A DNA stretch of 22,995 nt from Planctomycetota bacterium. Its GTDB lineage: Bacteria; Planctomycetota; Brocadiia; JAJRTI01. Positions 2,074-19,560 of the stretch are shown one piece after another (position 1 is the first letter of the stretch; every line of letters begins with the position of its first letter). The DNA is taken from the NCBI GenBank assembly GCA_024278415.1, contig JAJRTI010000819.1, forward strand, positions 1 to 22,995, read 5' to 3'. Made by a program: the position numbers and the translations under genes. Below the pieces are notes generated by a model. That model was given only the letters and a program-made list of their open reading frames with translations. It made no database searches and had not been told where the DNA came from.

Positions 2074-5000
2074 TCACGCCGTCTTGAAGATACGCTTGAC
2101 CCACTGCCCCACGTCGTCGATGAGCGAGTACATGGAGGGCATCACCACCAGAGTGAGAATCGTCGAAGTGCTCAGGCCCGCCACCAGAGCGAGGCACATG
2201 GGCGCGTACATGCGATCCCGGCCCTCGACCGGCCCAAAGACCGAAGGCAGCTTGACTTCCGCCCACGCGAGGGCCGCGTGGTACCACTGGCCCACGAAAC
2301 TGGGCAGCCACTGCCACCCGTCGACCCACTTGGTCGTCATGGCGATCAGCAGCGGCAGGACCATGGGCAGCAGGCCGAGGATCGTGGTGAGCGTGGTCAT
2401 GAGAATGGGCCGCAGCCGGTCGCACCCGCCCTTGAGGAGCGCCTCGCGCCGGTCCACGCCCTCGCGGCGCAACTGGTTCACGTGGTCGATGAGCACGATC
2501 GCGTTGTTCACGACTAGGCCGCACAGCAGAAGGATACCGATGATGGACATGTGGTCCACGGGCGTGCCGGTGAAGTGGAAGCCAAACGCGACGCCAAAGA
2601 ACGCGAAGGGGATCGAGAACATGATCACAAACGGATGGACGAACGACTCGAAGAGCGAGGCCATGATCATGTACACAAGCCCGGCCGCGAGGAGCAGCCC
2701 AAAGCGCGTGTCGCTGTCCTCCTGGCGATACCAACGCGACTGGCCGAAGGACCACGAGTACCCCGGCGGCATCGGGAACTTGGACATGGACTTCTCGATC
2801 AGGGCGCGGGCCATGCCGCTGTGCCGGCGGTCGGTGTTCGCGGTCACGTTCACCACGGATTGCCGGTCTTGCCGGCGCAGCCGATTCGGGCCTCGGACGC
2901 GGGTGAAGCTGGCGATTTGGTCGAAGGTCACCAGTTCCTTGCTGCCGCTCTCGAACTCCAAGTTCTTGAGTTGCTCCAGGCTCACCCGATCCTTCTCGCG
3001 CAGCTCCACCTTGATGTCCACTTCCTTGTCGCGCGTCTTGAACCGGCTCGCCGCGCGCGACGAGAGTGCGGACATGACGCCCCTCGCGACGCGGAGGGGC
3101 GTGAGTGCGAACCCCTGAGCGCGGTCGCGGTCGATGACCGCGCGAATCTCCTCCCGGCCGTTCTCAATGCTCGTGTCGACGTCCGAGACGAAGGGGACCT
3201 TCTCAAGGCGCTCTCGCACCAGGCCGGCGAGGCGCTCGATTGCGTCGGTGCGCGGGCCCTTGAGGTCGACGGACACGCCGGCCTGCTCGCCGCTCATGCC
3301 GTAGTGGCGCCCCGCCCGATAGCGCACGCCGGCGATGCTCGGCAGCGCGGCTTTGATCTCCTCCTTGAGCACGTCCGTGCTGCGCTTGGCCTTGTCCTCC
3401 TCGGTCAGGTACACCTCCAGCATGCCGCCGTTGCGCTGAATGCGGGAGCTAATGGTCTCGATCTCCAGCTCCGCGCGGCGCGGGTCGAGCGCCCGCTCGA
3501 GCCGGTCGAACACCTTGCGCGTATCCTCCAACTCGAACGTGCGGGGCGTGTCCACGCGAATGCGGACGCGTCGGGCGCCCCTGCCGAACCGGCGAGACTT
3601 CTCGATGTGGAAGTACATGTAGATGCTGAACACGCCCAGCACCAACGCCATGAACACGGTGACCATGCGAAACCGCAGCGTGGCCGAAAGCACGCCGTGG
3701 TAGAGGCGGATGAGCATCTGCACAAACCACGATTTCTTGTGCGTCTTGCCCACGAGCACCCTCGACGCCGCCAGCGGCACCAGCGTGAGCGCGACGAGCA
3801 GCGACGCGGAGAGCACGAGGCAGATGGTCATGCCAAAGTCCTTCATGAAGAACCGCATGCGGCCCGACTGGAAGAACATCATGGGCACGAACACGCACAT
3901 GGTCGTCGCGGTCGCGGCCAGCACGGCCGTGCCCACCTGCGACGCGCCGGCCACAGCCGCGTCGCGCGCGGAGAGATCGTGGTCCTCGCGCATGCGGAAC
4001 ACGTTCTCCAGCACCACCACGGCCGGGTCCACGAGCATGCCCAGCGAAAGCATGAGCCCAGACAGCGACACGATGTTGATCGTGATCGAGGATCCCAGCA
4101 GGCGTATGGCCAAGAACATGAGCCCAATCGCAAACATGACGCTTAGCGGGATCGCTGCGCTCACGATCAGCGTGCTGCGAACACTGCGCAGGAAGAAGTA
4201 CAGGATGATCATCACGAGCACGCCGCCGCTGAGGCCCGCGTTCTTGAGGCTGTTGAGGCTCTTGAGGATATCCTTCGAGCGGTCGCGGTACACGTACATG
4301 CGAATGCCCGCGATGCTCGGCTCGGACTTGAGCTTCTCCAACTCGGCCTGCACGCGCCTGGACACGGCGACGAGATTCGCGCCGCTCGATTTGAAGACGC
4401 GCAGCCCCACGGCCTCGCGGCCGTCGACCAACTGGTAGGAAGTTTTGTCCGGGAAATCGTATCGCACGTCGGCCACGTCGCCGAGCCGCACTTTGCCGCG
4501 CTTGAGGGGCAGGCGTTCCAGATCTTCCGGCTTCTGTAACTCGCCCATGATGCGCACCACGTAGCGCCGGCCCGCGTCCGTGATGTTGCCGGCGGACATG
4601 GTGATGTTGTTGTTGCGCAACGCCGCGCGGATGTTGAACGGCTCCACGCCGCAGGCCTTCATGCGCGCGAGGTCAAGTTCCGCGAGGAGTTGGCGCTCCT
4701 CCAGGCCCCACACATCCACGTTGGCCACGCCCTCGAGGCGCTCGAGGCGGCGCCGAATGACGTTCTCGACCGCTTCTTGGAGCGCCGCCTTGCCGTACAC
4801 ACTGGACATGGCGATCTCGACGACCGGCAAGTCCGTGGTCTGCCAGCGCCAGATGTTGATGCGTTCCACGTCGTCCGGCAGCTCCGGCCGCACGCGGTCG
4901 ATCCGGTCCCGCACCTCCATAGCCGCCAGGTCCATGTTCACGTCGTTGCCAAACTGCCACGTCACGCCTCCGCCGTTGCTGTCGGAATCGCCATAGAGCG

Positions 5001-5235
5001 CCTCGACTCCCTTCACCGTGCCCATGGCCTCTTCGAGGGGCCGCGTGATGAGCCTTTCGCACTCCCGCGGCGACGACGACGGGTAGCTCACGCGCACGCG
5101 CAAGTGCCGCGACGAAATCTCGGGGAGGTACTCGAGTGGGATCAGCCTCAACGAGATGGCGCCGATGACCACGACGCTCAGCACGAGCATCATCGTCGTG
5201 ATCGGCCGGCGCACGGCGAAGGCGGGTAGGCTCAT
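2074..5235 (-). CDS. RND efflux permease (second of pair)
   Basis: This is a 1053-aa inner-membrane proton-driven exporter of the HAE-1/AcrB-like RND superfamily. The family layout is intact: TM1 at about 11-30, a first periplasmic porter region, TM2-TM6 at about 334-492, TM7 at about 523-541, a second porter region, and TM8-TM12 at about 845-1038. In TM4 the proton-relay motif reads LGMLVDPAVVVLEN: Asp403 is kept, but the neighbour that is Asp or Asn in most relatives is Pro404. TM10 has VVNNAIVL in place of the AcrB lysine. About 40 extra residues (966-1005, Trp-rich) sit between TM11 and TM12 on the predicted periplasmic side. The ATG at 5235 overlaps the stop of the preceding permease as ATGA, indicating translational coupling. 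The frame stays open upstream of 5235, but that is a shadow of the other permease. Confidence 0.93.
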   Translation of the reverse strand: MSLPAFAVRRPITTMMLVLSVVVIGAISLRLIPLEYLPEISSRHLRVRVSYPSSSPRECERLITRPLEEAMGTVKGVEALYGDSDSNGGGVTWQFGNDVNMDLAAMEVRDRIDRVRPELPDDVERINIWRWQTTDLPVVEIAMSSVYGKAALQEAVENVIRRRLERLEGVANVDVWGLEERQLLAELDLARMKACGVEPFNIRAALRNNNITMSAGNITDAGRRYVVRIMGELQKPEDLERLPLKRGKVRLGDVADVRYDFPDKTSYQLVDGREAVGLRVFKSSGANLVAVSRRVQAELEKLKSEPSIAGIRMYVYRDRSKDILKSLNSLKNAGLSGGVLVMIILYFFLRSVRSTLIVSAAIPLSVMFAIGLMFLAIRLLGSSITINIVSLSGLMLSLGMLVDPAVVVLENVFRMREDHDLSARDAAVAGASQVGTAVLAATATTMCVFVPMMFFQSGRMRFFMKDFGMTICLVLSASLLVALTLVPLAASRVLVGKTHKKSWFVQMLIRLYHGVLSATLRFRMVTVFMALVLGVFSIYMYFHIEKSRRFGRGARRVRIRVDTPRTFELEDTRKVFDRLERALDPRRAELEIETISSRIQRNGGMLEVYLTEEDKAKRSTDVLKEEIKAALPSIAGVRYRAGRHYGMSGEQAGVSVDLKGPRTDAIERLAGLVRERLEKVPFVSDVDTSIENGREEIRAVIDRDRAQGFALTPLRVARGVMSALSSRAASRFKTRDKEVDIKVELREKDRVSLEQLKNLEFESGSKELVTFDQIASFTRVRGPNRLRRQDRQSVVNVTANTDRRHSGMARALIEKSMSKFPMPPGYSWSFGQSRWYRQEDSDTRFGLLLAAGLVYMIMASLFESFVHPFVIMFSIPFAFFGVAFGFHFTGTPVDHMSIIGILLLCGLVVNNAIVLIDHVNQLRREGVDRREALLKGGCDRLRPILMTTLTTILGLLPMVLPLLIAMTTKWVDGWQWLPSFVGQWYHAALAWAEVKLPSVFGPVEGRDRMYAPMCLALVAGLSTSTILTLVVMPSMYSLIDDVGQWVKRIFKTA

Positions 5236-8200
5236 TTGCCGGCCTCCTGGCCCGCGGGGGATTCGTCGGCCACCGGCGAGAGCCGGCGCAGCCCGGCGAG
5301 GAAGGCTTGCTTCGCGCCCTCGACCACGTCGTACACGGTCGGCACGAAGAGCAGCGTGAGCAGCGTCGACGTGAGCAGGCCGCCGATGACGGTGATGGCC
5401 ATGGGCTGCCGCAGCTCCGAGCCTTGGCCTAGGCCGAGGGCCATGGGCAGCAGGCCGAGCACGGTCGTCGCCGTGGTCATCAGGATCGGCCGCAGGCGCA
5501 TGCTCCCGGCCTCGACGATGGCCTCGCGGCGGGCCATGCCTTCGGCCATGCGGCTGTTGATGCAGTCCACGAGCACGATCGCGTTGTTCACGACGATGCC
5601 GGCGAGCATGACCACACCGATGAGCACGAGCACGCTGATGGGCGTGTGCGTGAGCCAGAGCGCGAGCACCACTCCGATGAGCGCGAAGGGGATGGTGAAC
5701 ATGATCACGAACGGGTGCAGCAGCGACTCGAACTGCGACGCCATGACCAAGTAGACCAGGAACGCCGCGAGCGTAATCGCGAAGCGCATGCTGTTGAACG
5801 CGGTCGACATCTCCCGGCTCTGGCCGCTGACCCGTGCATCGAAGTCGCGCGGCATCTCGATGGCCGGCAGCCGGGCCTCGATCTCGGCAACCGCGCTCTT
5901 GAGATCGCGGCCGCGCAAGTTCGCGGTCACCAGCGCGACGCGCTCGCCGCCGATGCGCCGAATCTCGTTGGGCCCGGCCGTGCGCACCACGCGGGCGACC
6001 GACGCGAGGGGGATGGGCGTCTTGCCGCCGGGGTTGACGGTGAGCCGTTCGAGCGCCGGCACGCCGCGCAGGTCGGACTTGCGCGCCTGGACGCGAATGT
6101 CCACTTGCCGATCCTCGCGGCTGAGTTCCGTCGCCACGTCGCCCTCGACGTTGGCGCGAATGATGCTGGCAATGGACGCGATGTTGAGCCCAAGCCGCGC
6201 GGTCTTCTCGCGGTCGAAGATGACCTGGAGTTCCGGGTTGCCGCCGACGAGGCTCGTCTTCACGTCCGTCAAGCCCCGCATGCGGGCGAGCAGATCGACG
6301 ACCTTGCGCGAGACAGCTTCGAGCTTGAGAAGGTTGTAGCCTCGCACTTCGATCTCGATCGGCGTGGCGTAGCTGAACAGGCTCGGCCGGGAGAACTTGT
6401 ACGTGAGCGCGGCGATGGGGTTGCGGTGCAAGTGGTCCCGCAGCCGGGCCATCATGGCATCCTCGCCTGCCCGGCCCAGCCCCGGCTTGAGCCGCACGTT
6501 GATCTGGCCAATGTGCTCGAGTTCGTCGCTGGCATAGCCGCCAGTCTGCCCGGTCGTGCCGACGATGGTATAGACCTGGGCGACGGCCGGATCCGCCCGC
6601 ACCATGGTCTCGAGCCGCTCCGCGGATACGAGGGTTCGGGCAAGGGGCGTGCCCACGGGCGTCTCGTAGTCGATGTTGACTTCGCCTTGGCTCAACTCGG
6701 GAATGAGTTCCGACCCCAACCGGCCGTAGAGCACGTAGCAAAGCCACAGCGCGGCGACGGAGAGGACGAGCACGAGGGGCTTGTTCGCCAGCGCGGCGCG
6801 CACGACCCCTGGATAGGCCCTCGCGACAAGCGAGAACACGAGGTTGAATGCGAACACGAACGGCCAAAGGAGCGCGTGGAAGACGCGGCCGATTTCGGAG
6901 TAGACGATCTTGATGCAGGCCGCGGCGAGCATGCCGCCGCCCATGCTGGAGAGCAGGTAGAACCCCAGCAACACGAGCGCGGCGCCGCCCCAGGTCTTGT
7001 TCGAGAACCGGTCGATGGTCGCGTGGCCGAACTGCACCGCGTAGTTCTTGAGCGTCGGCCCTTCCGGCTTGCCGCCGCGCAGGAAGGCCGGCCCCGTCTC
7101 AACGGCCTTGGGCAGGCTCGCGTGCACCCGCTCAGGCGAGACGATCGTGAGCACAAGCAGCCAGCCTAGGAAGAGGACGACCGCAAGCCGCATGAGATGC
7201 CGCAACACGTTCGACGCGAGTTCACGGCCAATGAGGGCAAACGCGTGGCCGATGCGCACGATGCCGCCCGATAGGATAGACGCAAAGAGGAAGAACGCGA
7301 ACAGCATGCCAAGAATCCGAAGGGCCACGCCGGCCCGGTGGGCTTTCCACGCGTCGAGAGCCTCGCCAACGGGCCGCGGCCCCACCGTGCGCCACAGCCC
7401 GTATGAAGCCGCAGCGCCCCCTGCGAACAGGCACACCACCAGCACGCTCACAACCGCTGGATGGAACAGCCCGCGGGAGCCGGAGGCGCGCTCCCCCTCA
7501 GGGTCGTGATGGCCGCGGCCCCAGATCGGCAGCGACGCAAGCATGGGGATGAACGTGAGCGCGACGAAGAGGCTCACCATGAGCGATGCAGTCACGGTGA
7601 GGGCCTGATCCTGGAAGAGTTGCCCGGCGATGCCCTGCACGAAGACGATGGGGAAAAACACACACACGGTCGTGAGCGTGGACGCCACGACCGCGCGGCC
7701 CACTTCGTCCGTGCCCTTGCTCGCGGCGTCGAGCGCGGACATGCCCTCGTCCCGGCAGCGGGCGATGCTTTCGAGCACGACGATCGCGTTGTCCACGAGC
7801 ATGCCGATGCCGAGCGCCAGGCCTCCCAGGGACATGACGTTGAGCGTCACGTCGGTCGTGTACATGAAGAAGAACGTCGCCACGACCGACAGGGGGATCG
7901 ACACGCCCACGATGATCGTGCTGCCGAAGTGGCGCAGAAAGAGGTAGAGGATCGCGATGGCCAGCAGACCGCCGACCTTCGCGGTGCTCAGCACCTCGTC
8001 GATGCTCTGTTGGATGAACCGCGACTGGTCGGACACGATGGTGACCCGGGCCGTGGTCGCTCGGCGCTCCAGATCCCTCTGGACGTCCTTCAGCGCCTTC
8101 TTCACGAGATTGGCCACGCTCACCGTGTTCGCGTCGGCCTCCTTGTAGACCGCCAACTCAACGCTCTCGCGGCCGTCGATGCGGGTGATGACCGTGCGCT

Positions 8201-9011
8201 CGCGGTGGCTCTTGACCACGGACGCCACGTCCTTGAGGCACACGGGCCGGCCTTGGCGCGTCACGAGTCTGATGTTCGCGATGTCGTCCACGTTCGCAAA
8301 CTCGTTGACCGTGCGCACGAGAAACTCGGCCCGTCCGTCCTTGAGGATGCCGCCGGTGAGGTTCACGTTCTCTTGCGCCAAGCGAGAGACCACGTCCCGC
8401 ACGGAGATGCGCAGGCGCGCGAGCTTGGCTTCGTTCACGTTGACGTGGATCTCTTCCTCGAGTCCGCCGCTGACCTTGACCGCGGCCACGCCGCCGCCCT
8501 CGCCGTTCTCCGTCGCTAGGCTCTCGAGCGCGGGCTTGAGTTCGTCCTCGGCCATGATGCGCAGCGCAACGAGGCTGTCGTCCCCAGTGAGGCCGATTCT
8601 CATGATGGGGTCGAGCGAAGGGTCGAAGCGCAGCAGCATCGGCGCCTTCGCGTCGTCCGGCAGGCGGATCATGTCCAGCCGCTCGCGGATGTCGAGCGAC
8701 GCCATGGCGATGTCCGTCTTCCACGCGAACTCGACGATCACGTCCGAGCGCCCGGGCCGCGAGATGGAGCTGACGTGCACCACGCCGGGGATGACGCCGA
8801 CCGCGTCTTCGATGGGCTTGGACACGAGCGTCTCGACTTCGTGCGGCGACGTGCCGGGGTAGTCGGTGCGCACCGTGAGCGTGGGGTACGAGATGTTCGG
8901 CAGCAGGTTGATGGGCAGCCGCTTGTAGGCGATGAGCCCGAACACGACCATCGCCACCATGAGCATGAAGGTTGTGACCGGGCGTCGGATGGATACGTCG
9001 GCGAGTTTCAT
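5232..9011 (-). CDS. Enlarged RND efflux permease with extra membrane helices (first of pair)
   Basis: This 1259-aa permease of the HAE-1-like RND family is about 200 residues longer than usual. The N-terminal half is canonical: TM1 at 12-29, porter region, TM2-TM6 at about 343-495, and TM4 with LVDNAIVVLE where Asp407 and Asn408 fall at the AcrB proton-relay positions. Canonical TM7 (NKPLVLVLSVAAL) begins near 743 rather than near 538. The segment between, about 500-740, contains four strongly hydrophobic stretches (about 518-540, 563-585, 606-625, 677-698), then FNLVFSLVARAYPGVVRAAL, which looks like the normal amphipathic helix before TM7. The C-terminal half is canonical, with VVNNAIVLVD in TM10. 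The start is ATG 9011. It lies 129 bases after the adaptor gene, with REP-like hairpins between. Export substrate unknown. Confidence 0.94.
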   Translation of the reverse strand: MKLADVSIRRPVTTFMLMVAMVVFGLIAYKRLPINLLPNISYPTLTVRTDYPGTSPHEVETLVSKPIEDAVGVIPGVVHVSSISRPGRSDVIVEFAWKTDIAMASLDIRERLDMIRLPDDAKAPMLLRFDPSLDPIMRIGLTGDDSLVALRIMAEDELKPALESLATENGEGGGVAAVKVSGGLEEEIHVNVNEAKLARLRISVRDVVSRLAQENVNLTGGILKDGRAEFLVRTVNEFANVDDIANIRLVTRQGRPVCLKDVASVVKSHRERTVITRIDGRESVELAVYKEADANTVSVANLVKKALKDVQRDLERRATTARVTIVSDQSRFIQQSIDEVLSTAKVGGLLAIAILYLFLRHFGSTIIVGVSIPLSVVATFFFMYTTDVTLNVMSLGGLALGIGMLVDNAIVVLESIARCRDEGMSALDAASKGTDEVGRAVVASTLTTVCVFFPIVFVQGIAGQLFQDQALTVTASLMVSLFVALTFIPMLASLPIWGRGHHDPEGERASGSRGLFHPAVVSVLVVCLFAGGAAASYGLWRTVGPRPVGEALDAWKAHRAGVALRILGMLFAFFLFASILSGGIVRIGHAFALIGRELASNVLRHLMRLAVVLFLGWLLVLTIVSPERVHASLPKAVETGPAFLRGGKPEGPTLKNYAVQFGHATIDRFSNKTWGGAALVLLGFYLLSSMGGGMLAAACIKIVYSEIGRVFHALLWPFVFAFNLVFSLVARAYPGVVRAALANKPLVLVLSVAALWLCYVLYGRLGSELIPELSQGEVNIDYETPVGTPLARTLVSAERLETMVRADPAVAQVYTIVGTTGQTGGYASDELEHIGQINVRLKPGLGRAGEDAMMARLRDHLHRNPIAALTYKFSRPSLFSYATPIEIEVRGYNLLKLEAVSRKVVDLLARMRGLTDVKTSLVGGNPELQVIFDREKTARLGLNIASIASIIRANVEGDVATELSREDRQVDIRVQARKSDLRGVPALERLTVNPGGKTPIPLASVARVVRTAGPNEIRRIGGERVALVTANLRGRDLKSAVAEIEARLPAIEMPRDFDARVSGQSREMSTAFNSMRFAITLAAFLVYLVMASQFESLLHPFVIMFTIPFALIGVVLALWLTHTPISVLVLIGVVMLAGIVVNNAIVLVDCINSRMAEGMARREAIVEAGSMRLRPILMTTATTVLGLLPMALGLGQGSELRQPMAITVIGGLLTSTLLTLLFVPTVYDVVEGAKQAFLAGLRRLSPVADESPAGQEAGK

Positions 9012-9140: not shown

Positions 9141-11021
9141 CTACCGTCCGCCGCGGCGGCGAGACTGGATGAAGCCCTTCTTGCGCATGTCGCCGTAGAA
9201 CTTCATGAACTTCTTGTCGTCGGTCGCGAGTGTGGGGTCTTGCTTGAGGCGCTTCTCGTACTCCGCCTTCGCTTTCGCGTTCCGGCCCAGCCCTTGGCGC
9301 ATGCGCACGATGACGGACGCCGGCGGCATGCGGATCTCAGGCTGGGGCGCGGCCTGGGGCTTGGCCTCTTGCACCGCGCCCTGGGCCTCGGTGCCGATGA
9401 TCCGCACCGCGGAGCCCTGCTTCAGATCCTCATGGCCCACGGTCACGACGCGGTCGCCTGGCTCGACGCCGCTGAGGATCTCGATCTCGTTGCCTTCCGA
9501 GAAGCCCACCTTGACGATGCGCTTCATCGCAAGTTGCCGCAGCGCGTATGATTCGACCTTCAGGGCCAGCGGCTTTAGGGTTGGCGTTTGGGGGGCCTTC
9601 AGGCCTTCCTTGGCGTCCGTATCCGCTTCAGTTGGTGCGGCGGGTATGGTCGTCCTCAGCTCCAGCGTCATGCCATCGGAGAGGCCGTGTTGGTCTGGGA
9701 GTGCGATCAAACACTCGACCGTCTCATCGCTCTCCTCAGGCTCAGGCATGCTGTGGAAGGTCGTCTCGACAATGATGGGCTTGCTAGCCGCACGCGCCAG
9801 CGTGGGGGACAATGTGCGCTCGCCCTGCGCGCGCGTGGCGTCGCCAGGTTTCTCCTGCTGGCCGCCGCGCCGTCCCGAAGGCTTGGCTTTGGCTTCGGCG
9901 CCCGGTTTCTTCTCCGCCTTCGGCTTCGGCGTCGCCACGACCGTCACCTTGCCGCCGGTCTTGAGGATCTTGGCGTACTTCGCGGGGATCTTGGCCGCCA
10001 GGAAATCCTTGACCACGAACACCTCGTTCAGATCGCTCTCAATCACGAGCGACTTCTTGGGCAACACCAGCGCGTTGTCGTGGGTTTCGGTGATGAGGTA
10101 CGTGGACGCGAACATGCCCGGGCACAGGCAGTACTTGTCCGGATCGGCGATCTCAAAGGTGACCTTCACCGTGCCGCTATCGCTGTCCACGACCGGGCTG
10201 ATCATGCTCACCTTGCCCAAGAACTCCTTCTCGGGCACGGACTCGACCTTCACCCGCACGGGCAGGCCGACCCGGACCTTGCTCAGATCGCGTTCGGGCA
10301 CATGGATGCGGCCCAAGATCGGATCGTAGTTTGCGACGCGGAATAGGGCCTCGTTCGCCTTCACGTTCTGGCCCACGTCCACGTTGCGCTCGACGACGAC
10401 ACCGTCGATGGGCGAAGTCACCTCGGTGTAGCTCAGCGTCAGCGTGGCGCTCTCATAACCGACCTGGGCCGTCTCGTAGGCCACCTGCGCCGATTCAAGA
10501 TCCTCCTGGCTCACGATGTTGTTGGAGAACATGCGCTTCAGGCGTCCGTACACGGATTTCGCCTGTTCGAGTTGCGCCTTCTCTTGGCGCGCCTTGAGGG
10601 CCATCTCCCGGTCGTTGAGCCGGGCCAGGAGTTGGCCTTGCTTCACGCGGTCGCCCTCCTCGACCTGGATTGCAACCACTTCCTCGGAAATGCGCGCGAT
10701 GACATCGACGGCGACGCGGGCTTCGAGCGTGCAGGTGCTCAAGAGGAAAGCCTCGATGGGCTTGCGCACGACCGGGGTGATGACCACCGGCACGGAGGCT
10801 TGCCCGGTGGCCTGCGACCGCGGGCGGCCCCATCCCCCACGGCCGCGCATGCCGCCGCGGCCTCCGCGGCCGCGGGCCGCGGCTTGGCTGGCGCCTTGGG
10901 CCGCCTCGCCCTTGTCCTTCGGCCGCGTCGCCAGCCAAATGCCGGCAACCAGCAGCACGACGAACACCGCTTGAACGATGATCTGGTCCTTCAATGTGCT
11001 ACGACTCATGGGCGATCTCAT
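9141..11021 (-). CDS. RND efflux periplasmic adaptor (membrane fusion protein) with split terminal domain
   Basis: This 626-aa adaptor bridges an RND permease and an outer-membrane channel. It has one N-terminal membrane anchor (about 13-31), an Arg/Gly/Trp-rich linker (50-69), then lipoyl half-motifs (about 104-136 and 202-232, with VTSPIDGVVVERNVDVGQ) flanking a helical hairpin (137-198), and a beta-barrel domain (about 235-310). The membrane-proximal domain starts at NALVLPKKSLVIESDLNEVFVV (316-337) and resumes only at about 497-541 (RIVKVGFSEGNEIEILSGVE). Between lie about 160 residues rich in Lys, Pro, Ala and Glu, and a charged tail follows (545-626). Relatives are usually 350-450 aa. 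Met5 (11009) is an alternative start; neither candidate has a strong ribosome-binding site. It begins 39 bases after the MarR gene. Confidence 0.92.
   Translation of the reverse strand: MRSPMSRSTLKDQIIVQAVFVVLLVAGIWLATRPKDKGEAAQGASQAAARGRGGRGGMRGRGGWGRPRSQATGQASVPVVITPVVRKPIEAFLLSTCTLEARVAVDVIARISEEVVAIQVEEGDRVKQGQLLARLNDREMALKARQEKAQLEQAKSVYGRLKRMFSNNIVSQEDLESAQVAYETAQVGYESATLTLSYTEVTSPIDGVVVERNVDVGQNVKANEALFRVANYDPILGRIHVPERDLSKVRVGLPVRVKVESVPEKEFLGKVSMISPVVDSDSGTVKVTFEIADPDKYCLCPGMFASTYLITETHDNALVLPKKSLVIESDLNEVFVVKDFLAAKIPAKYAKILKTGGKVTVVATPKPKAEKKPGAEAKAKPSGRRGGQQEKPGDATRAQGERTLSPTLARAASKPIIVETTFHSMPEPEESDETVECLIALPDQHGLSDGMTLELRTTIPAAPTEADTDAKEGLKAPQTPTLKPLALKVESYALRQLAMKRIVKVGFSEGNEIEILSGVEPGDRVVTVGHEDLKQGSAVRIIGTEAQGAVQEAKPQAAPQPEIRMPPASVIVRMRQGLGRNAKAKAEYEKRLKQDPTLATDDKKFMKFYGDMRKKGFIQSRRRGGR
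9785..9807. repeat. REP-like hairpin inside the adaptor coding sequence (copy 3)
   Basis: TAGCCGCA, GCCA loop and a stem of 7 of 8 matching pairs (9788-9795 with 9800-9807; mismatch at 9805) repeat the pattern of 55-77 and 9055-9077. On the coding (minus) strand it is read in frame as about residues 405-413 (SPTLARAAS), within the low-complexity insert of the adaptor. The gene remains open, so the element appears to have been accommodated as a peptide. Confidence 0.6.
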
Positions 11022-11060: not shown

Positions 11061-11522
11061 CTAGCCATCCTCAACCTGTTGCAGGACTTCACCGATCGTC
11101 TCAAAGGCATCGACGAGCCTCCGCCGGTCGGCACTGCTCAACTGCGACAACACGCAGTCGATCTTCTCCCCGCGCAGGCGCCGAAACCGGTCGCGCAGGC
11201 CCTTGGCCTTGCGCGTGAGTTGCACGCGCACCACCCGGCGGTCGTCCGGATCATCCACCCGCACCACGAGCCCGTTCTCGACCATGCGGTCGACGAGGCC
11301 CGTCGCAGTGGGCGTCGAGATGCCGGCCAGGCGAGCCAACTCTTTCATGGCCACGCTCTCGTGCTGGCCGAGCAGCCGCAGCAGCTTAAGCTGACGCATG
11401 GTCACGTCGGGCAGGTTCGACATTTTGGGCTTGCGCGTCATGCCGGAGAAGAGGCGATGCTGGATCTCGCTCATCAGCAGGTTGACGCGCTCTGCCGCGT
11501 CGCCGATCGATTGTGAGGCCAT
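11061..11522 (-). CDS. MarR-family transcriptional regulator
   Basis: A 153-aa winged helix-turn-helix protein of typical MarR length. Helical N- and C-terminal parts (about 5-25 and 105-150) would form the dimer interface. The DNA-binding core runs from about 41 to 103: MKELARLAGISTPTATGLVD supplies the helix-turn-helix and RVDDPDDRRVVRVQLT is the classic MarR wing, with the DxRxxxV signature. It starts at ATG 11522 with AGGA about eight bases upstream. It is first in the minus-strand unit ahead of the RND adaptor and permeases, and a promoter with an overlapping inverted repeat lies upstream, so autorepression relieved by a small ligand (as in MexR, MarR or EmrR systems) is the likely role. 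The ligand is unknown. It might also influence the divergent dehydrogenase operon. Confidence 0.93.
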   Translation of the reverse strand: MASQSIGDAAERVNLLMSEIQHRLFSGMTRKPKMSNLPDVTMRQLKLLRLLGQHESVAMKELARLAGISTPTATGLVDRMVENGLVVRVDDPDDRRVVRVQLTRKAKGLRDRFRRLRGEKIDCVLSQLSSADRRRLVDAFETIGEVLQQVEDG

Positions 11523-11717: not shown

Positions 11718-12740
11718 ATGAAAGCCGTCGCCGTCACCGACGTGGGCAAAATCGAGTTCGTCGAACTGCCCGCGCCCAAGTTCCACGATTACGAATGCCT
11801 CGTCAAGATGACCGCCTGCGGCCTGTGCAACGGCACGGACCTCAAGCACATCGACGGCACGCTCGGCAACGTGCGCGAGCAGTACCCGATCATCCTCGGC
11901 CATGAGGCTGTCGGCGAAGTCGTCGAGGTCGGCCGCAAGGTCAAGAACTTCAAGGTCGGCGACATGATTACCGACCCCGTGCCGGCCGTCGACGATCCGC
12001 GCTACAATTCCGGCTGCGCCGGCTTCTGCGAGTACGGCGTGGTGCAAGACCACGAGGTGATGCAAGAACTGGGGCTTGGCGACGACGCCAAACGTTGGCT
12101 TTCCGACCGCGCCAACGTGGTGCGCGCGGAGATGGCGCCCGTGGACGCGGCGATGCTCGTGACGTTCAAGGAGACGTACAGCGCGGCCAAGAACTTTGGC
12201 ATTGGCGGCGGCACGGACGTGCTCATCTACGGAGACGGCCCCAACGCCGTCTCGCTCGCCGCTCTCGCGCGCGTCAACGGCGCGGCGTGGCTCGGCATGG
12301 TCGGCCACTGGGACAGCCGGCTCGCGCGCGCGGCCGAAGTGGCCAAGCTCGATCAGACCATCAACTCGAACGACGCGGACGTGGCAACTGCGCTCGCAGG
12401 CCGGAAGGTCGACGTTGTGATCGACGCGGTCGGCCGCGTCGCGATCATCCAGGACGGCTTCCGCTGCGTGAAGCGGCTGGGCAAGGTCGGCGTGTTCGGC
12501 GTGCTCCGCAACACCGAGCCCGATCTGTCCATCCGCGCCATCCCCACGGGCGCATCGCTTCAGATGCTGTCGTGGCCCGTCGGCGCCAACGACGTGCACG
12601 ACGAGGTCGTGGACATGGTCGCGACCGGCGCACTCAAGCCAAGCGTGTTCTACAGCGAAGTCGACTCGTGGGGAAACATCGAGGACGCGGTCGCGCGGGT
12701 GCGTTCCCGCGACGCGTTCAAAATCATCCTCACGATCTGA
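11718..12740 (+). CDS. Zinc-dependent alcohol dehydrogenase family protein (MDR superfamily)
   Basis: A 340-aa medium-chain dehydrogenase/reductase, expected to oxidise an alcohol or polyol, or reduce the matching carbonyl, with NAD(P). The GroES-like N-terminal domain has CGLCNGTDLK, where Cys37 is the expected catalytic zinc ligand, and GHEAVGEVVEVG, where His62 and Glu63 complete the site. The four-cysteine structural-zinc loop of classical enzymes is missing. The Rossmann part has YGDGPNAVSLAALA (the GxGPxG dinucleotide motif with Ala for the last Gly), and KVDVVIDAVG follows. AAGGA at 11706-11710 lies seven bases before the ATG, which fixes the start. It is the first gene of the plus-strand operon with an isomerase-like protein and a glycyl radical enzyme, so it probably handles a substrate or product of that route. 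Exact specificity cannot be read. Confidence 0.9.
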   Translation: MKAVAVTDVGKIEFVELPAPKFHDYECLVKMTACGLCNGTDLKHIDGTLGNVREQYPIILGHEAVGEVVEVGRKVKNFKVGDMITDPVPAVDDPRYNSGCAGFCEYGVVQDHEVMQELGLGDDAKRWLSDRANVVRAEMAPVDAAMLVTFKETYSAAKNFGIGGGTDVLIYGDGPNAVSLAALARVNGAAWLGMVGHWDSRLARAAEVAKLDQTINSNDADVATALAGRKVDVVIDAVGRVAIIQDGFRCVKRLGKVGVFGVLRNTEPDLSIRAIPTGASLQMLSWPVGANDVHDEVVDMVATGALKPSVFYSEVDSWGNIEDAVARVRSRDAFKIILTI

Positions 12741-12807
12741 CGCGGCCCGCGCCGCGGCGATCGGGCCGAGGGATCTCAACGCACAGCAAGACACCACGGA
12801 ACCCGCC

Positions 12808-14334
12808 ATGCCCATCACCCCCCACCGTTCGAAAGTGCTCTGTCTGCCCGTGATACGCGGCTTCTACGACCGGGCCATGACCCGGCGCGTGAAGGCCGGC
12901 ATGCGGCAGGCCTGCGCCGCCCTCGACGTGGACGCCATCTTCCCCGCGGACGACGCGTGCACCGAGGGCCTCATTTGCAGAGACCGCGGCGTGCGCGCCT
13001 ATTGGGAAACCTGGCGTGGCGACCTCGCAGACATCAAGGCCCTCATCGCGTTTAGCTCCGACTTCATGGACGAGCGCTCGGTGATGGACACGGTGCGCCT
13101 CCTGCCCGAGGACGTGCCGATCTTCCTGATCGTCAACAACGACAGCGTCTCCGCGCAGGTCGAAGGCGAATCGGTGGGCGATGGCCTCTGCGGGTCGCTG
13201 TCCGTGCACCACAACCTGCGCATGATCGGCCGATCCATGACGCGCTCGTGCCGCATCGACATGAACGACGCGGGCACGCTCCAAGCAAAGCTCGCCGAGT
13301 GCCTGCGCGTCAGCGACGGCATCGAGGCGCTGCGGCACATGCGCATCGCGCTCCTCGGCGTGAACCCCACTCCCTTCGCTACGACGTTCTCGAACCAGAT
13401 GGAGCTGTTTCGGCTCGGTTTTTCGCTCCACACGTACGAACTGCTCGACATGTGGGGCGACGTGATGCTCGGCGGGCAGCTCGACGCAGGCACCAACGAA
13501 TACGAAGCCCCGTTCGGCAAGGTAAAGCTCGCCCGGCCCGTGCGCAAAGACGACCCGCGCGTGGCTCAAGCCAAAGCGCGCATCGCCGCGGCCGTGCCCC
13601 ACCTGCCGGGCGACGAGAAGGCATTCGACGTCATCGCGCGGTGCTTCGTGTGGGTCGAGGAGACGTTCGAGCGCGACGCGATCGACGCGGGCGCAGTGCA
13701 CTGCTGGCCCGAATTCGCTCGCTTCTTCGGCGTCGCGCCCTGCGCGTTCAGCATGTTCGCCAACCTGCTGCTCGACAAGCCGGTCGTGTGCGAGGTCGAT
13801 GTCTGCCACGCGATCATGGCGAAGCTCGGCAACGTCATGAGTGGCGAGGCGAGCGTGATTCTCGACGTGAACAACAACGGCTGGGACCCGCGCGTGTTCA
13901 ACGTGTTCCATTGCTCGCAGACGCCGGCCAACTGGCTTGTAGGCGGCGGCGAGGTGACCGACCGCGGCGAGGTCGCAGGCGTGATCCAGGCCGCGCCGTT
14001 CACCGCGGTCTCGGCCGCGACGTCGTGCGACGCGTTCCACGCGATCGTCTTCACCGGCCAGTTCCTCGCCGAAAACCCTGGCCGTCGCGGGTCAAGCGGC
14101 TGGGCGTTTGTGCCCAACAACCAGGACGTGCTCAAGGCCATCGAGCAGGTCGGCATCCACCACTTCGTCGCGATGAAGGGCCTCCTGCCGCACGACGTGG
14201 CGGATGCCCTGCGCTTCAAAGGGCTGGTCGTGAACGACCTCTCGTGTCCCGTGCCGTCGCTCGAAGAGATTGCGGCGGAATTGCCGAAGCTGGACGCTAT
14301 CACTTGCGCGACGCCGGCGGTATACTCGGAGTAG
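12808..14334 (+). CDS. L-fucose isomerase-like protein (COG2407-type)
   Basis: A 508-aa protein of the FucI/AraA-like isomerase superfamily, in the divergent group often annotated only as fucose-isomerase-like. Known relatives interconvert aldoses and ketoses with a metal ion. Recognisable pieces: an N-terminal alpha/beta domain (about 8-180) with FLIVNNDSV and the GSLSVHHNLRMIGR segment, RIALLGVNP at 179-187, HCWPEFARFFGVAPC (298-312), CEVDVCHAIMAKLG (328-341) with Glu329 and Asp331 as likely metal ligands, ILDVNN at 351-356, and His451-His452 near the end. Overall similarity to true FucI is low, so fucose should not be assumed as substrate. The start at ATG 12808 has only a weak ribosome-binding site (CGGAA). 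The gene lies 67 bases after the dehydrogenase and its stop is two bases from the next ATG. Confidence 0.82.
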   Translation: MPITPHRSKVLCLPVIRGFYDRAMTRRVKAGMRQACAALDVDAIFPADDACTEGLICRDRGVRAYWETWRGDLADIKALIAFSSDFMDERSVMDTVRLLPEDVPIFLIVNNDSVSAQVEGESVGDGLCGSLSVHHNLRMIGRSMTRSCRIDMNDAGTLQAKLAECLRVSDGIEALRHMRIALLGVNPTPFATTFSNQMELFRLGFSLHTYELLDMWGDVMLGGQLDAGTNEYEAPFGKVKLARPVRKDDPRVAQAKARIAAAVPHLPGDEKAFDVIARCFVWVEETFERDAIDAGAVHCWPEFARFFGVAPCAFSMFANLLLDKPVVCEVDVCHAIMAKLGNVMSGEASVILDVNNNGWDPRVFNVFHCSQTPANWLVGGGEVTDRGEVAGVIQAAPFTAVSAATSCDAFHAIVFTGQFLAENPGRRGSSGWAFVPNNQDVLKAIEQVGIHHFVAMKGLLPHDVADALRFKGLVVNDLSCPVPSLEEIAAELPKLDAITCATPAVYSE

Positions 14335-14336
14335 CC

Positions 14337-16718
14337 ATGACCCCGCGCATCGAACAACTCCGCCAACTCATCCAAGAACTCAACGACGCCGGCGTGCGCC
14401 GCACGACACACTTCGGGCTCGTCGCAGAGTCGCTCGAACAGACGCGCGGCGAGCCGCGGCCCATTCGCCGCGCCAAGGCGTTCGCACACTTGCTCGACCG
14501 CGTCGAGCAAGTCGTGCTGCCCCATGAGTTGATCACGGGCTCTATCCTTGGCATGTGGCCGCTGGCGGAAGGGCTGCCGCCATTCGAGCAACGTAGCGAG
14601 GAGGCCGCGGAGGTCATCGAGCGCTTCATCGAGGACAAGCGCACGAAGGGCCGAGGCGCGGAAGGGCAGCGCTGGGGCAGCCTCATGTTGCGCGACCACT
14701 ACGACGCGAACATCGAGTTCCGCGATCTCCAGAAACTCATCGCGGAGATGTCGGACCGCTACGCGGGCGGCGAGATCACACAGCGCGAGATCGGCGTGTT
14801 GCTGGAGCAGCACTTCCAGTTCGACTACAGCCGCGAGCAGAAAGTCATGCGCGAGTTGCCGTGGTTCGTGGCCAACCACGTCGATCTGAATTACGGCAAG
14901 GCCGCGCGCCGCGGACTGGGTTCGATCCGCGACGAGGTCATCGAGCGGCTCGCCGCGGCCGAAGACGATGAGAAGCGGGTGTTCTACGAGTCCGCCAAGA
15001 TCGCCATTGACGCGGCCATTCGCTTCGTCGAGCGGTACGCAGACACGGTGGAGGCCATGTGCGAATGGCCGGACGTGGACGAGGCCCGCGCGGCGGAGCT
15101 GGCCGACATGGCCGCGGTCCTCCGCAAGATCGCGGCCGAGCCGCCGGAGACGTTCCGCGAGGCGATCCAGCTCGTGTGGATGCTGCACGCGATCATCAGC
15201 ATCGGCGGCGGGTCGGCCATGTCCTTTGCGCGCTTCGACCAATACATGGAGCCATTCTATGCGCGCGACATCGAGCGGGGCGCGGCCACGCGTGAGGAAG
15301 CCAAGGATCTCGTGAGCTGCCTGTGGCTCAAGGTGAACGAGCCGCACATGCGCACGGTGCAGAGCATGTGCCTCGCCGGCGTGCGGCCCGACGGCTCACC
15401 CGGCGCCACGGACTTCACGCGGCTCTGCCTCGAAGTTTGCCGCGAGGTGGGCCAGCCCTACCCGAACCTGGCCGTGCGCGTGGGCGCGGAGACACCGGAG
15501 TGGCTGTGGGATGAGATCGCTGTGACAATCAAGAGCGGCGCGGGCCATCCCATGATTCTCAATGACGACACGTGGGTGGGCAACTTCCACCGGCTCGGCT
15601 ACCCGATCGAATCCGCGCGGGACTACTACAACATGGGCTGCGTGGAGATGATGATCATGGGCCAGACCGCGGAGTGGCGCGGCGCGGGGAACATGGACCT
15701 GCCGGGCATGCTCGAACTCGTGTTCCGCAACGGCGAGGCGAACCTGGCCGGCGAGACCGGCGCCAAGACGGGCGCGCTCGATGCGTTCGAGACGTTCGAC
15801 CCATTCCTCGACGCGTGCCTCGAGCAGGTGCGCCACCGCGTGCGCGAAAACCGCCGCCTCGTCGAGCAGCAGGACGCGGGGCGCCGCGGCAAGGCGTACG
15901 ATCCGTTTGGGTCGCTCTTCATCGACGATTGCCTCGAGCGCGGGCGCGACATGTACCAAGGCGGCGCGCGCTTCGGGCCGATTCGCCCCATGATCGGAAA
16001 GGGCCTCGCCACCACGGCCGACGCGTTGGCCGCGGTGAAGAAGCTCGTGTTCGACGAGCAGCGCTTCACGCTCCAGGAGCTGTGGGCGATCCTCGAACGC
16101 GACTTCGAGGGCCACGAAGGCCTGCGCGTCGAGTTGGGCCGGCGCCTGCCGTGCTTCGGCAACGACGACCCCGAGGTCGACGCCATCGCGCAGAAGGTGT
16201 TCGCGGCGTACACCGACGCGGTGCACGCGTGCAACGACGGCTCCGCGCCAGGCACGTTCGTGACGGGGATGTTCAGCTACACGGGCCACATCAGCGCGGG
16301 CGAAGTGACCGCAGCCACGCCCAACGGCCGGCGCCAGGGAGAAACCGTGAGCAACGGCATCGCGCCGAGCCAGGGCAAAGACACGAACGGGCCGACTCGC
16401 GCGATCCTGTCGGTGGCGAAGCTGGACCACTCGCGGATCACCGGCGCATGCGCGTACAACCTGAAGCTCTGCTCGGCGCTCGTGAGAGGCGAGAAGGGCT
16501 CGGCCACACTCGTGGCCCTGCTCAAGACCTACGTCGCCCAAGGCGGCTGCCAGATGCAGGTCAATTTCGTCGACCAAGACACGCTCAAGGACGCGCAGCA
16601 GCAGCCCGAGCAGCATCGCGACCTGATCGTGCGCGTGGCGGGGTACTCCGAGTACTTCAACAACCTCGACCACCGGCTCCAAGACGAGATCATTGCGCGG
16701 ACCGCGCACGCGGTGTGA
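14337..16718 (+). CDS. Glycyl radical enzyme, pyruvate formate-lyase-like
   Basis: A 793-aa oxygen-sensitive enzyme of the PFL/diol-dehydratase superfamily. The active-site cysteine is Cys435 in YNMGCVEM, with Glu437 as the usual acid/base partner. The radical-bearing loop near the C-terminus reads RVAGYSEYF with Gly769 as the expected radical site, followed by QDEIIARTAH. Other family landmarks are IRRAKAFAHLL (43-53), LPHELITGS (61-69) and ATPNGRRQGETVSNGI (660-675). The residue after CVE is Met rather than the Pro of glycerol/diol dehydratases and CutC, so the subclass is unclear: dehydratase, C-S or C-N lyase, or decarboxylase. The ATG at 14337 is two bases after the isomerase-like stop, with GGAG at 14328-14331. 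The frame is open further upstream, but that is an overlap with the previous gene. No radical-SAM activase lies nearby. Confidence 0.92.
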   Translation: MTPRIEQLRQLIQELNDAGVRRTTHFGLVAESLEQTRGEPRPIRRAKAFAHLLDRVEQVVLPHELITGSILGMWPLAEGLPPFEQRSEEAAEVIERFIEDKRTKGRGAEGQRWGSLMLRDHYDANIEFRDLQKLIAEMSDRYAGGEITQREIGVLLEQHFQFDYSREQKVMRELPWFVANHVDLNYGKAARRGLGSIRDEVIERLAAAEDDEKRVFYESAKIAIDAAIRFVERYADTVEAMCEWPDVDEARAAELADMAAVLRKIAAEPPETFREAIQLVWMLHAIISIGGGSAMSFARFDQYMEPFYARDIERGAATREEAKDLVSCLWLKVNEPHMRTVQSMCLAGVRPDGSPGATDFTRLCLEVCREVGQPYPNLAVRVGAETPEWLWDEIAVTIKSGAGHPMILNDDTWVGNFHRLGYPIESARDYYNMGCVEMMIMGQTAEWRGAGNMDLPGMLELVFRNGEANLAGETGAKTGALDAFETFDPFLDACLEQVRHRVRENRRLVEQQDAGRRGKAYDPFGSLFIDDCLERGRDMYQGGARFGPIRPMIGKGLATTADALAAVKKLVFDEQRFTLQELWAILERDFEGHEGLRVELGRRLPCFGNDDPEVDAIAQKVFAAYTDAVHACNDGSAPGTFVTGMFSYTGHISAGEVTAATPNGRRQGETVSNGIAPSQGKDTNGPTRAILSVAKLDHSRITGACAYNLKLCSALVRGEKGSATLVALLKTYVAQGGCQMQVNFVDQDTLKDAQQQPEQHRDLIVRVAGYSEYFNNLDHRLQDEIIARTAHAV

Positions 16719-16828: not shown

Positions 16829-18130
16829 CTAGGACACGGCCGCTAGCCGCCGCGCGGCCGCGAGCAGGATCGACTCGGCCTCTGGGGCGAGCGCCGCGGG
16901 CTCACCGTACACGTAGATGTTGGTCAGGGCCTCGTATCCGCCTTCAGGCAGCATGTCCGCGGTCGGCACGTAGGAGCGCGAGGAACCGCAGTACGCAGCC
17001 ACGAGCGCGGGCGCGGGCGCGAGCGCTTCCTTGACTGCAAGCTGGTAGCCCAGGCACGTTTCGTCGTTGAACGCGACGAGCCGGAAGGGGCCGATGCCGA
17101 TCGACTGGACCGTGCTCGGCCGGGTCGTGGGCAGCGCGCCGGGGTTGCGATCGAGCACGATCTGCGCCCACTTCGCCTTCTTGTTGTCCGACCCACCAGC
17201 GATCTCGGCCAGTTCCTCCTTTGTCGGCACATCCTGGTAAGGCAAGCTGACGACCTCCATGCCGTATGACAGCGGCCCGCTGATGTCTTGCGTGTCGCCC
17301 GTGAGGCCGGCCATGACCGCGAGCGAGAGTTCGCGGCCGAGCGCACGCACGTCGTCCAGCGTGCCGGCGCAGAACCGGCCGCTCGCGTTGACCATGCGCG
17401 GCCGCACGTCGCCAAAGCAGCCGGCCAGGAACATCGCGGCCGCGCCGGGGAACTCGCGTTCGAGGCAAAGCTGCGCGTGGCCAGGGTAGTCGCCGCCAAT
17501 GAGTTGGCCGCCCATGGTCGTGGCGTGGCAGGCATAGGAGAAGAGGAGCGCCGCGGTCGGGCCGCCGGGTTCGGACAGCCGCACGATGGCCACGTCGGGA
17601 TCCCACCGGCCGTTTGGGTTCGGCAGCATGGGGCAGCCGTCGAGATCGGGCCGGCGCCGGTTGATGCCGAACGCGGCCCGTCCCACCGCGAACTCCGCCT
17701 GCACCGGGCGAAGGGTCTTGGCCGCGTCGCAGATCGCGTTGGCGCACGTCTGGCCCAGCCACTCGACGTAGGCCATGTCGACCTCGTCGTACAGCCACGA
17801 GATGGCGTCGTCCACGACCGGGCCGCAGTGCGTGTGCGACGCGGAGAGCAGCACCTGGCTCTCGTCGAGCCCAAGCCGCTCCTTCACCCCCGACTTGATC
17901 GCGGCCACGAGCGATTCGCTGAAGTCGAGCAGCTCCGCGGTGAGGATCGCGACGCGTTCGTGTGCTTCGTCTTCGAGCACGAGCGCGCGTGCATAGATCT
18001 GTTGATACACTCCGCTCGACTTCTGGTCGCGGCCGTATCCGCTCTGGAAGACCGGGCGCGTTGGCGTGATGCAGCGCGTGGCCGTGCCGGCGGACAGAGT
18101 CTGGGCCGCGTTGCTGTTGTCGCTGGTCAA
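16829..18130 (-). CDS. Neutral/alkaline ceramidase-like hydrolase
   Basis: A 433-aa protein resembling the N-terminal catalytic domain of neutral/alkaline ceramidases, which are zinc amidases, but much shorter than the 650-700 aa secreted enzymes. Counting from the proposed start: SASHTHCGP (96-104) matches the first zinc-histidine motif, FSYACHATTMGG (197-208) the second, followed by GGDYPG (212-217) and GCFGDVRPR (237-245), the usual Gly-Asp-Val motif. No signal peptide is visible. I prefer the TTG at 18130 because AGGAG (18142-18138) lies exactly seven bases upstream. The alternative GTG at 18196 overlaps the xseA stop as GTGA but has no ribosome-binding site of its own, and the ATG at 18163 has none. 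Ceramide as substrate is doubtful; many such short homologues in environmental bacteria are uncharacterised. Confidence 0.82.
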   Translation of the reverse strand: MTSDNSNAAQTLSAGTATRCITPTRPVFQSGYGRDQKSSGVYQQIYARALVLEDEAHERVAILTAELLDFSESLVAAIKSGVKERLGLDESQVLLSASHTHCGPVVDDAISWLYDEVDMAYVEWLGQTCANAICDAAKTLRPVQAEFAVGRAAFGINRRRPDLDGCPMLPNPNGRWDPDVAIVRLSEPGGPTAALLFSYACHATTMGGQLIGGDYPGHAQLCLEREFPGAAAMFLAGCFGDVRPRMVNASGRFCAGTLDDVRALGRELSLAVMAGLTGDTQDISGPLSYGMEVVSLPYQDVPTKEELAEIAGGSDNKKAKWAQIVLDRNPGALPTTRPSTVQSIGIGPFRLVAFNDETCLGYQLAVKEALAPAPALVAAYCGSSRSYVPTADMLPEGGYEALTNIYVYGEPAALAPEAESILLAAARRLAAVS

Positions 18131-18137
18131 TGTGGTT

Positions 18138-18142
18138 CTCCT
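18138..18142 (-). promoter_or_regulatory. Ribosome-binding site deciding the ceramidase-like start
   Basis: AGGAG on the minus strand, seven bases before a TTG codon at 18130-18128. It favours TTG over the upstream GTG (18196) and ATG (18163). Confidence 0.6.
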
Positions 18143-18192
18143 GTGGCTGTGGCGACCGGCCATCACGATCTTGCCAAGACACTTGCGGCGAG

Positions 18193-19560
18193 TCACGCCC
18201 CGCCCGGGCCTCCCTGTTCCGCAGCATCCTCTCCAAGCGCGACTTCGGCCACGACCGACCGCAGGCGGCCCTTGGCCAGGACGGTGTGGATTTCATCGGC
18301 CGGCGCGAGTTGCCCAGCATCTCGCACGACTTCGCCGTCCGCGGTTGTTGTCACGGAATAGCCTCTTCCCAGCACGGCTAGCGGGCTGAGGCCCTCCAGC
18401 CGCGCACCGCCCGAAGCGAGCCGTTCGCGTGCATGCTTGAGCCGGCTGGCCATAGCGGTGTGCCCGCGCTGGGCGAGGTCGTCGGCGCGCTGCTGGCGCT
18501 GCCGAATGGGGTCCAGGGGGCGGCTCAGGCCGTAGCTTCGCGCGAGCGTCTCCAGCCGCTGTTTGGCCACGCTCAGTTGGCCCAGCAAAGCCTGCGCGAG
18601 CCTGCGTTTGGCCACGCGCAGCATGTCGAGCAGTGCGCCCGCGTCCGGCACGACCATCTCGCCGGCCGCGGTCGGCGTCAGCGCACGCCGGTCCGCCACG
18701 AGGTCCGAGATGGTCACGTCGATCTCGTGGCCGACGGCCGAGATGATAGGGATGTCGGACGCGAAGATGGCCCGCGCCACGGCTTCCTCGTTGAACGCCC
18801 AGAGGTCTTCCAGGCTGCCGCCGCCCCGGCCCACGATCAACACGTCCGGCTTGCCCCATGTGTTGAAGTCGGCAATGGCCTCTGCGATCTCCGCGGCCGC
18901 GCCGTCGCCTTGCACGCGTACGGGCCGGATGTAAACCTCGATGGCCGGGAAGCGGCGCAGAATCACGTCGAGCATGTCGCGGATTGCCGCTCCCGTGGGC
19001 GAGGTGACGATGCCGATGCACCGCGGCAATTCGGGCAGAGGCTTCTTGTGGGCTTCATCGAACAGGCCCTCCTGGCGCAGCTTCTCCTGGAGTTGCTTGA
19101 ATGCGAGTTGGAGCGCGCCTTCGCCCTTGGGCTCGATTCGTTCGACGATGATCTGGTAGTTGCCCCGCGGCTCGTAGACCGTGATGCGGCCGTGCACGAC
19201 CACTTCGAGCCCATCTTCGAGCCGAAAGCGGGCGCGCTGCGCGACGTTGCGGAAGGCCACCGCGGAGATCTGCGACTGCTCGTCCTTGAGCGTGAGGTAC
19301 ACGTGGCCGGAACTGGGCGTGCGCGCGTTCGAGATCTCGCCGGTCAGCCACACGCGGCCGAAAGTGCCCTCTAGGCACTTCTTGATGTCGCGCGTCAGCT
19401 CGGCGACGGTGTAGACCTTGCGTTCGGCCTGGGCCGCCTCTTGTTTCGCGTCGGCGCTCACCTGTTTGGCCGCAGCCACTTTCCGCCCGCCTCCGGCGCC
19501 CCTCTGCTTGGCTGCATCGAAGAGAGGCAAGTCTGCTTGCTTCTGTCCTCGCCGCGCCAT
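18193..19560 (-). CDS. xseA: Exodeoxyribonuclease VII large subunit
   Basis: A 455-aa XseA, the catalytic subunit that with XseB degrades single-stranded DNA to short oligonucleotides during repair. After a basic Ala/Gln/Lys-rich extension (1-47) comes the OB-fold (about 48-145, with VWLTGEISNARTPSSGHVYL near its start), then the catalytic domain with GIVTSPTGAAIRDML (183-197), GRGGGSLEDLWAFNEE (244-259) and SAVGHEIDVTISDLVADRRA (274-293) followed by TPTAAGE, then a coiled-coil region and the C-terminal LAVLGRGYSVTT. The start at ATG 19560 (AGGGG about nine bases upstream) is five bases after the original stop of the YmdB-family gene. The frame is open upstream to 20028, but this is a shadow. 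No XseB-sized gene follows; the next gene is the ceramidase-like one. Confidence 0.95.
   Translation of the reverse strand: MARRGQKQADLPLFDAAKQRGAGGGRKVAAAKQVSADAKQEAAQAERKVYTVAELTRDIKKCLEGTFGRVWLTGEISNARTPSSGHVYLTLKDEQSQISAVAFRNVAQRARFRLEDGLEVVVHGRITVYEPRGNYQIIVERIEPKGEGALQLAFKQLQEKLRQEGLFDEAHKKPLPELPRCIGIVTSPTGAAIRDMLDVILRRFPAIEVYIRPVRVQGDGAAAEIAEAIADFNTWGKPDVLIVGRGGGSLEDLWAFNEEAVARAIFASDIPIISAVGHEIDVTISDLVADRRALTPTAAGEMVVPDAGALLDMLRVAKRRLAQALLGQLSVAKQRLETLARSYGLSRPLDPIRQRQQRADDLAQRGHTAMASRLKHARERLASGGARLEGLSPLAVLGRGYSVTTTADGEVVRDAGQLAPADEIHTVLAKGRLRSVVAEVALGEDAAEQGGPGGA

Follow-up and report, generated by a model that had tools for sequence, protein, structure and literature searches.

A two-permease RND locus in a planctomycetal contig

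The window analysed here is a stretch of 22,995 nucleotides (contig JAJRTI010000819.1, assembly GCA_024278415.1) from a Planctomycetota bacterium of the Brocadiia, and our subject is P0001, a permease of the resistance-nodulation-division (RND) type that carries additional transmembrane (TM) helices in the middle of its chain. The transmembrane domain of RND proteins is usually regarded as invariable, made of 12 helices with a brief connector in the middle. Along the minus strand the window encodes, in this order, a MarR-family regulator (11061..11522), a 626-amino acid (aa) periplasmic adaptor or membrane fusion protein (MFP; 9141..11021; RND_mfp E 4.5e-66, above cut-off), P0001 itself, which adjoins the adaptor gene and is the first permease of the cluster (1259 aa; 5232..9011), and a second, partner permease (1053 aa; 2074..5235). 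The partner gene begins with an ATG that shares bases with the P0001 stop codon (ATGA, 5235-5232); such overlaps are the usual sign of translational coupling, so the two permeases are probably translationally coupled. Order and strand suggest that regulator, adaptor and both permeases form a single operon.

An adaptor gene with two adjacent RND permease genes is the layout of MdtABC-type pumps, and the likeness extends to MuxABC (PMC12802153, PMC7015380). A Pfam scan of 13 proteins of the window found no match to a TolC-type channel. In the partner permease, 46 residues lie between the TM11 and TM12 peaks (residues 967-1014), compared with 10 in P0001.

Four additional helices between TM6 and the connecting helix

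An earlier note, made from the letters of this DNA alone, had claimed about four extra TM helices between TM6 and TM7 of P0001, at residues of about 518-540, 563-585, 606-625 and 677-698. Besides the twelve peaks that are canonical for an RND pump, Kyte-Doolittle hydropathy over 19 residues gave matching peaks at 515-533 (2.08), 562-580 (2.37), 606-624 (2.52) and 679-697 (1.72). They are flanked by TM6 (470-488) and TM7 (745-763), and a peak at 711-729 aligns with the connecting helix I-alpha. An AlphaFold2 model of P0001 residues 31-1230 was built from 78 sequences (mean predicted local distance difference test score, pLDDT, 76.7; predicted template modelling score, pTM, 0.69; 30 added to the model numbering). 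It placed helices at 516-543, 560-581, 583-600, 602-624, 654-670, 672-714, 716-742 (I-alpha) and 744-762 (TM7). The note had both the positions and the number of the extra helices right.

The inserted membrane module spans residues 498-710 (6882..7520, minus strand as for all its parts), between TM6 and I-alpha, within the wider segment 497-742 (bases 7523-6786); it is delimited by hydropathy, by 70 insert-free relatives and by seven other carriers. Hydropathy and the model agree on helices H1 (residues 516-543; 7383..7466; block pLDDT 54-72), H2 (560-581; 7269..7334; 69-74) and H3 (602-624; 7140..7208; 86-91). Between H2 and H3 runs an amphipathic, presumably cytoplasmic helix (583-600; 7212..7265; block pLDDT 74-80) with a hydrophobic moment of 0.42 in P0001. 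H3 is followed by a 46-residue, presumably periplasmic loop (626-671; 6999..7136), modelled in part with pLDDT under 50, which contains the invariant Pro634 and the helix 654-670. H4 (672-714; 6870..6998; block pLDDT 73-84) is predicted at 43 residues and includes the invariant Gly691. The module then gives way to I-alpha (715-742; 6786..6869), the ordinary TM6-TM7 link in AcrB-type pumps, whose role in AcrB we take from PMC8277102. P0001 thus departs from the classical 12-TM layout, in which a short amphipathic link is all that joins TM6 and TM7.

Hydrophobic peaks can arise from composition, and shuffling was used to gauge this. When the 213-residue P0001 segment was shuffled, at least four peaks of at least 1.7 appeared in 9/2000 shuffles, and of at least 1.6 in 27/2000; with a threshold of at least 1.8, the three peaks observed were equalled in 49/2000. 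Across the eight inserts at a threshold of at least 1.4, the proportion of shuffles reaching the observed count ranged from 2/1000 (P0003) to 387/1000 (P0009), with P0001 at 149/1000. The peak count alone is therefore moderately beyond composition or not beyond it at all, and because hydrophobic composition by itself also yields peaks, the case for the insert rests on comparison with relatives.

The insert distinguishes eight carriers from 70 aligned relatives

Two protein searches, each scoring 8000 candidates, listed the best 120 of 7702 and the best 120 of 7925 matches, giving 133 distinct proteins with the query included. Among the matches listed, eight proteins of 1244-1283 aa, P0001 included, share the position of the insert, a ninth long one is an open reading frame (ORF) of 1806 aa (P0008), and 124 are 1030-1095 aa long, so most listed relatives do not share the length of P0001. 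We aligned 78 sequences, namely the P0001 fragment 31-1230, the seven further carriers and, from the 124 shorter proteins, 70, with P0008 left out; the remaining 54 shorter proteins were judged insert-free by length only.

The stretch corresponding to residues 491-745 holds 233-268 residues in carriers versus 47-90 in the 70 non-carriers, and between 495 and 743 all eight carriers have 4-6 peaks of at least 1.4 versus 0-1 in every one of the 70 (I-alpha being counted where it passes). Because loop lengths and peak counts differ in this way, the sequences indicate that the insert is real, fixed in place and uncommon among the relatives listed, and that it is no artefact or assembly oddity. The four-helix claim was upheld on all three counts, by hydropathy, by AlphaFold2 and by the 70 non-carriers.

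One carrier, P0009, comes from a Planctomycetota metagenome-assembled genome, and the relatives in that part of the tree that are named and have no insert include Scalindua, Brocadiales and Planctomycetes entries. The permeases of Scalindua rubra (P0011), Brocadiales (P0032) and Brocadiia (P0047) share 58-59% identity with the P0001 fragment but lack the module. The earlier note had also asked whether the insert is clade-specific, and here the answer is divided. A quick tree of the 78 core sequences grouped seven carriers (support 98) with P0041 adjoining, and the carrier label needs two changes on it; in a careful tree of 29 rows (the eight carriers and 21 hand-picked from the 70) all eight came together, but with weak support (46/20). 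These trees are compatible with a single origin of the insert.

Searched with the insert alone, the database returned only P0001 at E<=10 among 7990 candidates scored, though seven other carriers exist. The module gave no convincing sequence match, and no fold match was obtained from a weak model of the TM6-TM7 module (pTM 0.46). A scan of genome contigs returned one actinobacterial locus, no relative was found on viral contigs, and the 5000 best plasmid records were all under 60% identity (best listed row, 39.6%). We also considered an internal duplication, H1-H2 versus H3-H4, and rejected it as unsupported (hhalign aligned no more than 16 columns, at a probability of 1.4%). In the open-access literature searched, and with the terms used, we met no account of additional helices where TM6 is joined to TM7.

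The pump core is retained

P0001 matches PF00873 (ACR_tran) in two stretches (E 1.2e-249; 831.5 bits, cut-off 28) and its fold resembles that of AcrB, the twelve canonical TM helices and the two porter halves all being present; among proteins of solved structure, MdtB is the closest to it in sequence. None of the 21 matched NCBIfam families for named RND subfamilies scored above its cut-off. The best was NF033617 (697.5 versus 1250), and the MdtB/MuxB family NF007798 reached 419.4 versus 1584, scores that are lowered because the insert divides the P0001 match in two.

Relay positions were set by alignment to MdtB and an AdeB entry, with the AcrB residue numbers taken from PMC8277102. The equivalents of Asp407 and Arg971 are kept in 78/78 aligned rows. 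At the Asp408 position (also residue 408 in P0001) there is Asn in 8/8 carriers, and 66 Asn and 4 Ser in the 70 non-carriers; at the Lys940 position (P0001 residue 1142) Asn occupies all 78 rows, including P0011, P0032 and P0047. P0001 thus lacks two members of the AcrB-type relay Asp407/Asp408/Lys940/Arg971, namely its second Asp and its Lys, and differs in this from AcrB and MdtB. The proposal that the enlarged permease is an elaborated working pump was in part borne out: the extra helices, the Asp407 equivalent and both porter halves are there, but the relay differs, with Asn at the positions of Asp408 and Lys940. Judged from the alignment, the pump core of P0001 is intact.

The module changes quickly while keeping its helices

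Identity to P0001 among the seven other carriers is 62-82% over residues 1-330, 68-88% over 331-496 and 13-39% over 497-708. In the five close carriers mean identity was 41% in the link, 20% in H1, 31% in H2, 30% in the H2-H3 stretch, 27% in H3, 29% in the loop, 41% in the periplasmic helix, 43% in H4, 50% in I-alpha and 40% in TM7; the other eleven TM helices stand at 78-97%. The ends of the module (link, periplasmic helix and H4) are therefore better kept than H1-H3. Because H1-H4 resemble TM7 in identity, unlike the other TM helices, the module appears to evolve like an exposed helix, and the pattern looks like that of lipid-facing helices whose closest ties to the pump are at the two ends of the module.

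Such figures could also mean that little constrains the segment, which would have been gained once, been harmless in a permissive cytoplasmic loop and been kept by chance or by a ratchet-like dependence. Pro634 and Gly691 are its only invariant residues, and its length varies from 198 to 233 residues among carriers, in keeping with this idea, as is the low identity to P0001. Yet 4-5 peaks of at least 1.4 persist in 8/8 inserts, and at least four hydrophobic stretches are present in all of them despite whole-protein identity down to 52%; they are kept even where identity in the second porter half falls to 48% (P0041), and unselected decay should have broken some. We consider weak constraint an unlikely explanation.

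A third possibility is that the four helices are a functional module in their own right, a site for lipid or hydrophobic substrate or a fused, once separate membrane protein, through which cargo would reach the pump. Their size and layout resemble those of a small membrane protein, and the loop between H3 and H4 keeps Pro634 and has its helix among the better kept parts in the close carriers. Fast sequence change does not agree with a conserved binding or catalytic site, and we regard this idea as quite improbable.

Possible pairing with the second permease

In Escherichia coli the active pump is reported to be MdtB2C (PMC12802153, PMC7015380), and P0001 may likewise assemble with its partner. 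The module could then act as an identity tag in a heterotrimer, filling space between protomers and fixing the pairing ratio with the co-encoded permease. The gene layout, in which the second permease begins inside the stop codon of the first, is in line with this, as is the MdtB2C precedent. However, MdtB pairs with MdtC without any module (MdtB aligns to residue 496 and resumes at 516), so a module is not required for pairing, and the heterotrimer here is read from gene layout only.

P0008 bears on the same question. This single ORF comprises two tandem RND permease halves, the first without the module; the second, of partner type, is 42.5% identical to the partner permease of the window over 489 residues and has two hydrophobic stretches past TM6 (508-526 and 545-563 of that half). 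These stretches would favour an identity role, but the BLASTP match ends at residue 492 of the half, their placement in the loop relies on a weak TM7-like peak (1.38), and as a single sequence they are only a lead. An identity role in the heterotrimer is the nearest rival to the explanation we propose below, though we hold it to be doubtful.

Other features of the window

Just downstream of the permease genes, 1737-1936 contains two Acido-Lenti-1 RNA matches in opposite orientation (RF01687; 52.5 and 51.5 bits). GTCCCTACGGGAC occurs there in three exact copies, and two hairpins have the palindrome CCCAGC..GCTGG. In a table of the 2010 paper that is the source of this motif, it carries a 'y' under 'RNA?' for Acidobacteria and Lentisphaerae (PMC2864571). 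In appearance the region is closer to intergenic repeats in an inverted pair of the REPIN type than to one small RNA gene.

A divergent gene set on the plus strand (11718-16718) encodes a zinc-type dehydrogenase, a protein of 508 aa that weakly matches sulfoquinovose isomerase (36.7 bits against a cut-off of 700) and a glycyl radical enzyme whose closest model is PFL2-3 (482.6 bits, cut-off 678.2). Beyond it on the minus strand (16829-18196) lies a gene whose 455-aa product has an N-terminal domain of the ceramidase type (PF04734, E 1.2e-12); genes for the exonuclease VII large subunit, YmdB and LptD are nearby.

Discussion

P0001 belongs to a known pump type, of which it is a true variant with 16 TM helices, and is not a new system. 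It probably serves as a proton-driven export subunit in an MFP-RND-RND pump under MarR control, with an AcrB/MdtB-like core onto which a four-helix membrane domain appears to have been grafted between TM6 and I-alpha, and it would assemble with the co-translated second permease. Four extra helices in the TM6-TM7 connection set it apart from AcrB and MdtB of E. coli; compared with MdtABC, where MdtB has no module, a heterotrimer is here suggested by gene layout.

We propose that the module is a lipid-facing accessory membrane domain that tunes or spaces the pump, an explanation that we consider about evenly balanced between right and wrong. The four helices would form two hairpins with both ends in the cytoplasm, lying at the lipid-facing edge of the protomer beside I-alpha and TM7 and outside the substrate and proton paths. 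From there they might widen the membrane footprint, prop the spacing of protomers and set lipid contacts, and could tune the pump allosterically through I-alpha and TM7. AcrZ, which sits at the membrane edge of AcrB, offers an analogy, since it adds a membrane helix to an RND trimer and modulates the pump, but it is a separate small protein, whereas the four helices lie within the P0001 chain. AcrZ is described as modulating AcrB together with cardiolipin (PMC7267776). The suggested topology is consistent with mean net charge over the eight carriers, at +2.6 for the H2-H3 stretch and +3.1 from the H4 end to I-alpha, against +0.25 (H1-H2) and +1.6 (H3-H4) for the presumed periplasmic loops.

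Several points weigh against this proposal. The charge pattern holds as a mean only, the loops of P0001 itself showing slight contrast (+1, +1, +2 and +3 from first to last), and the link that precedes H1, expected to be cytoplasmic, averages only +0.75. Model confidence drops below a pLDDT of 50 at 501-503, 510-514, 544-546, 549-552 and 640-649 and is about 54-72 over H1; modelled with only TM6 and TM7, the module reached a pTM of 0.46, with H4 and I-alpha fused as one 71-residue helix. Fast sequence change equally fits a co-evolving partner or weak constraint.

Looking forward, otherwise intact pumps that keep four extra helices while the sequence of those helices drifts provide a natural experiment on tuning at the protomer edge, and the carriers also bear on how two-permease pumps distinguish their subunits. 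More speculatively, built-in, fast-evolving TM6-TM7 domains may set both subunit identity and lipid contacts in two-permease RND pumps, the loop having been colonised at least twice (four helices here, perhaps two in P0008); we advance this tentatively. If true, the central loop would be a general docking point for extending a rigid 12-TM transporter, and module-bearing pumps would count as AcrB-type pumps to which an AcrZ-like regulator is covalently joined.
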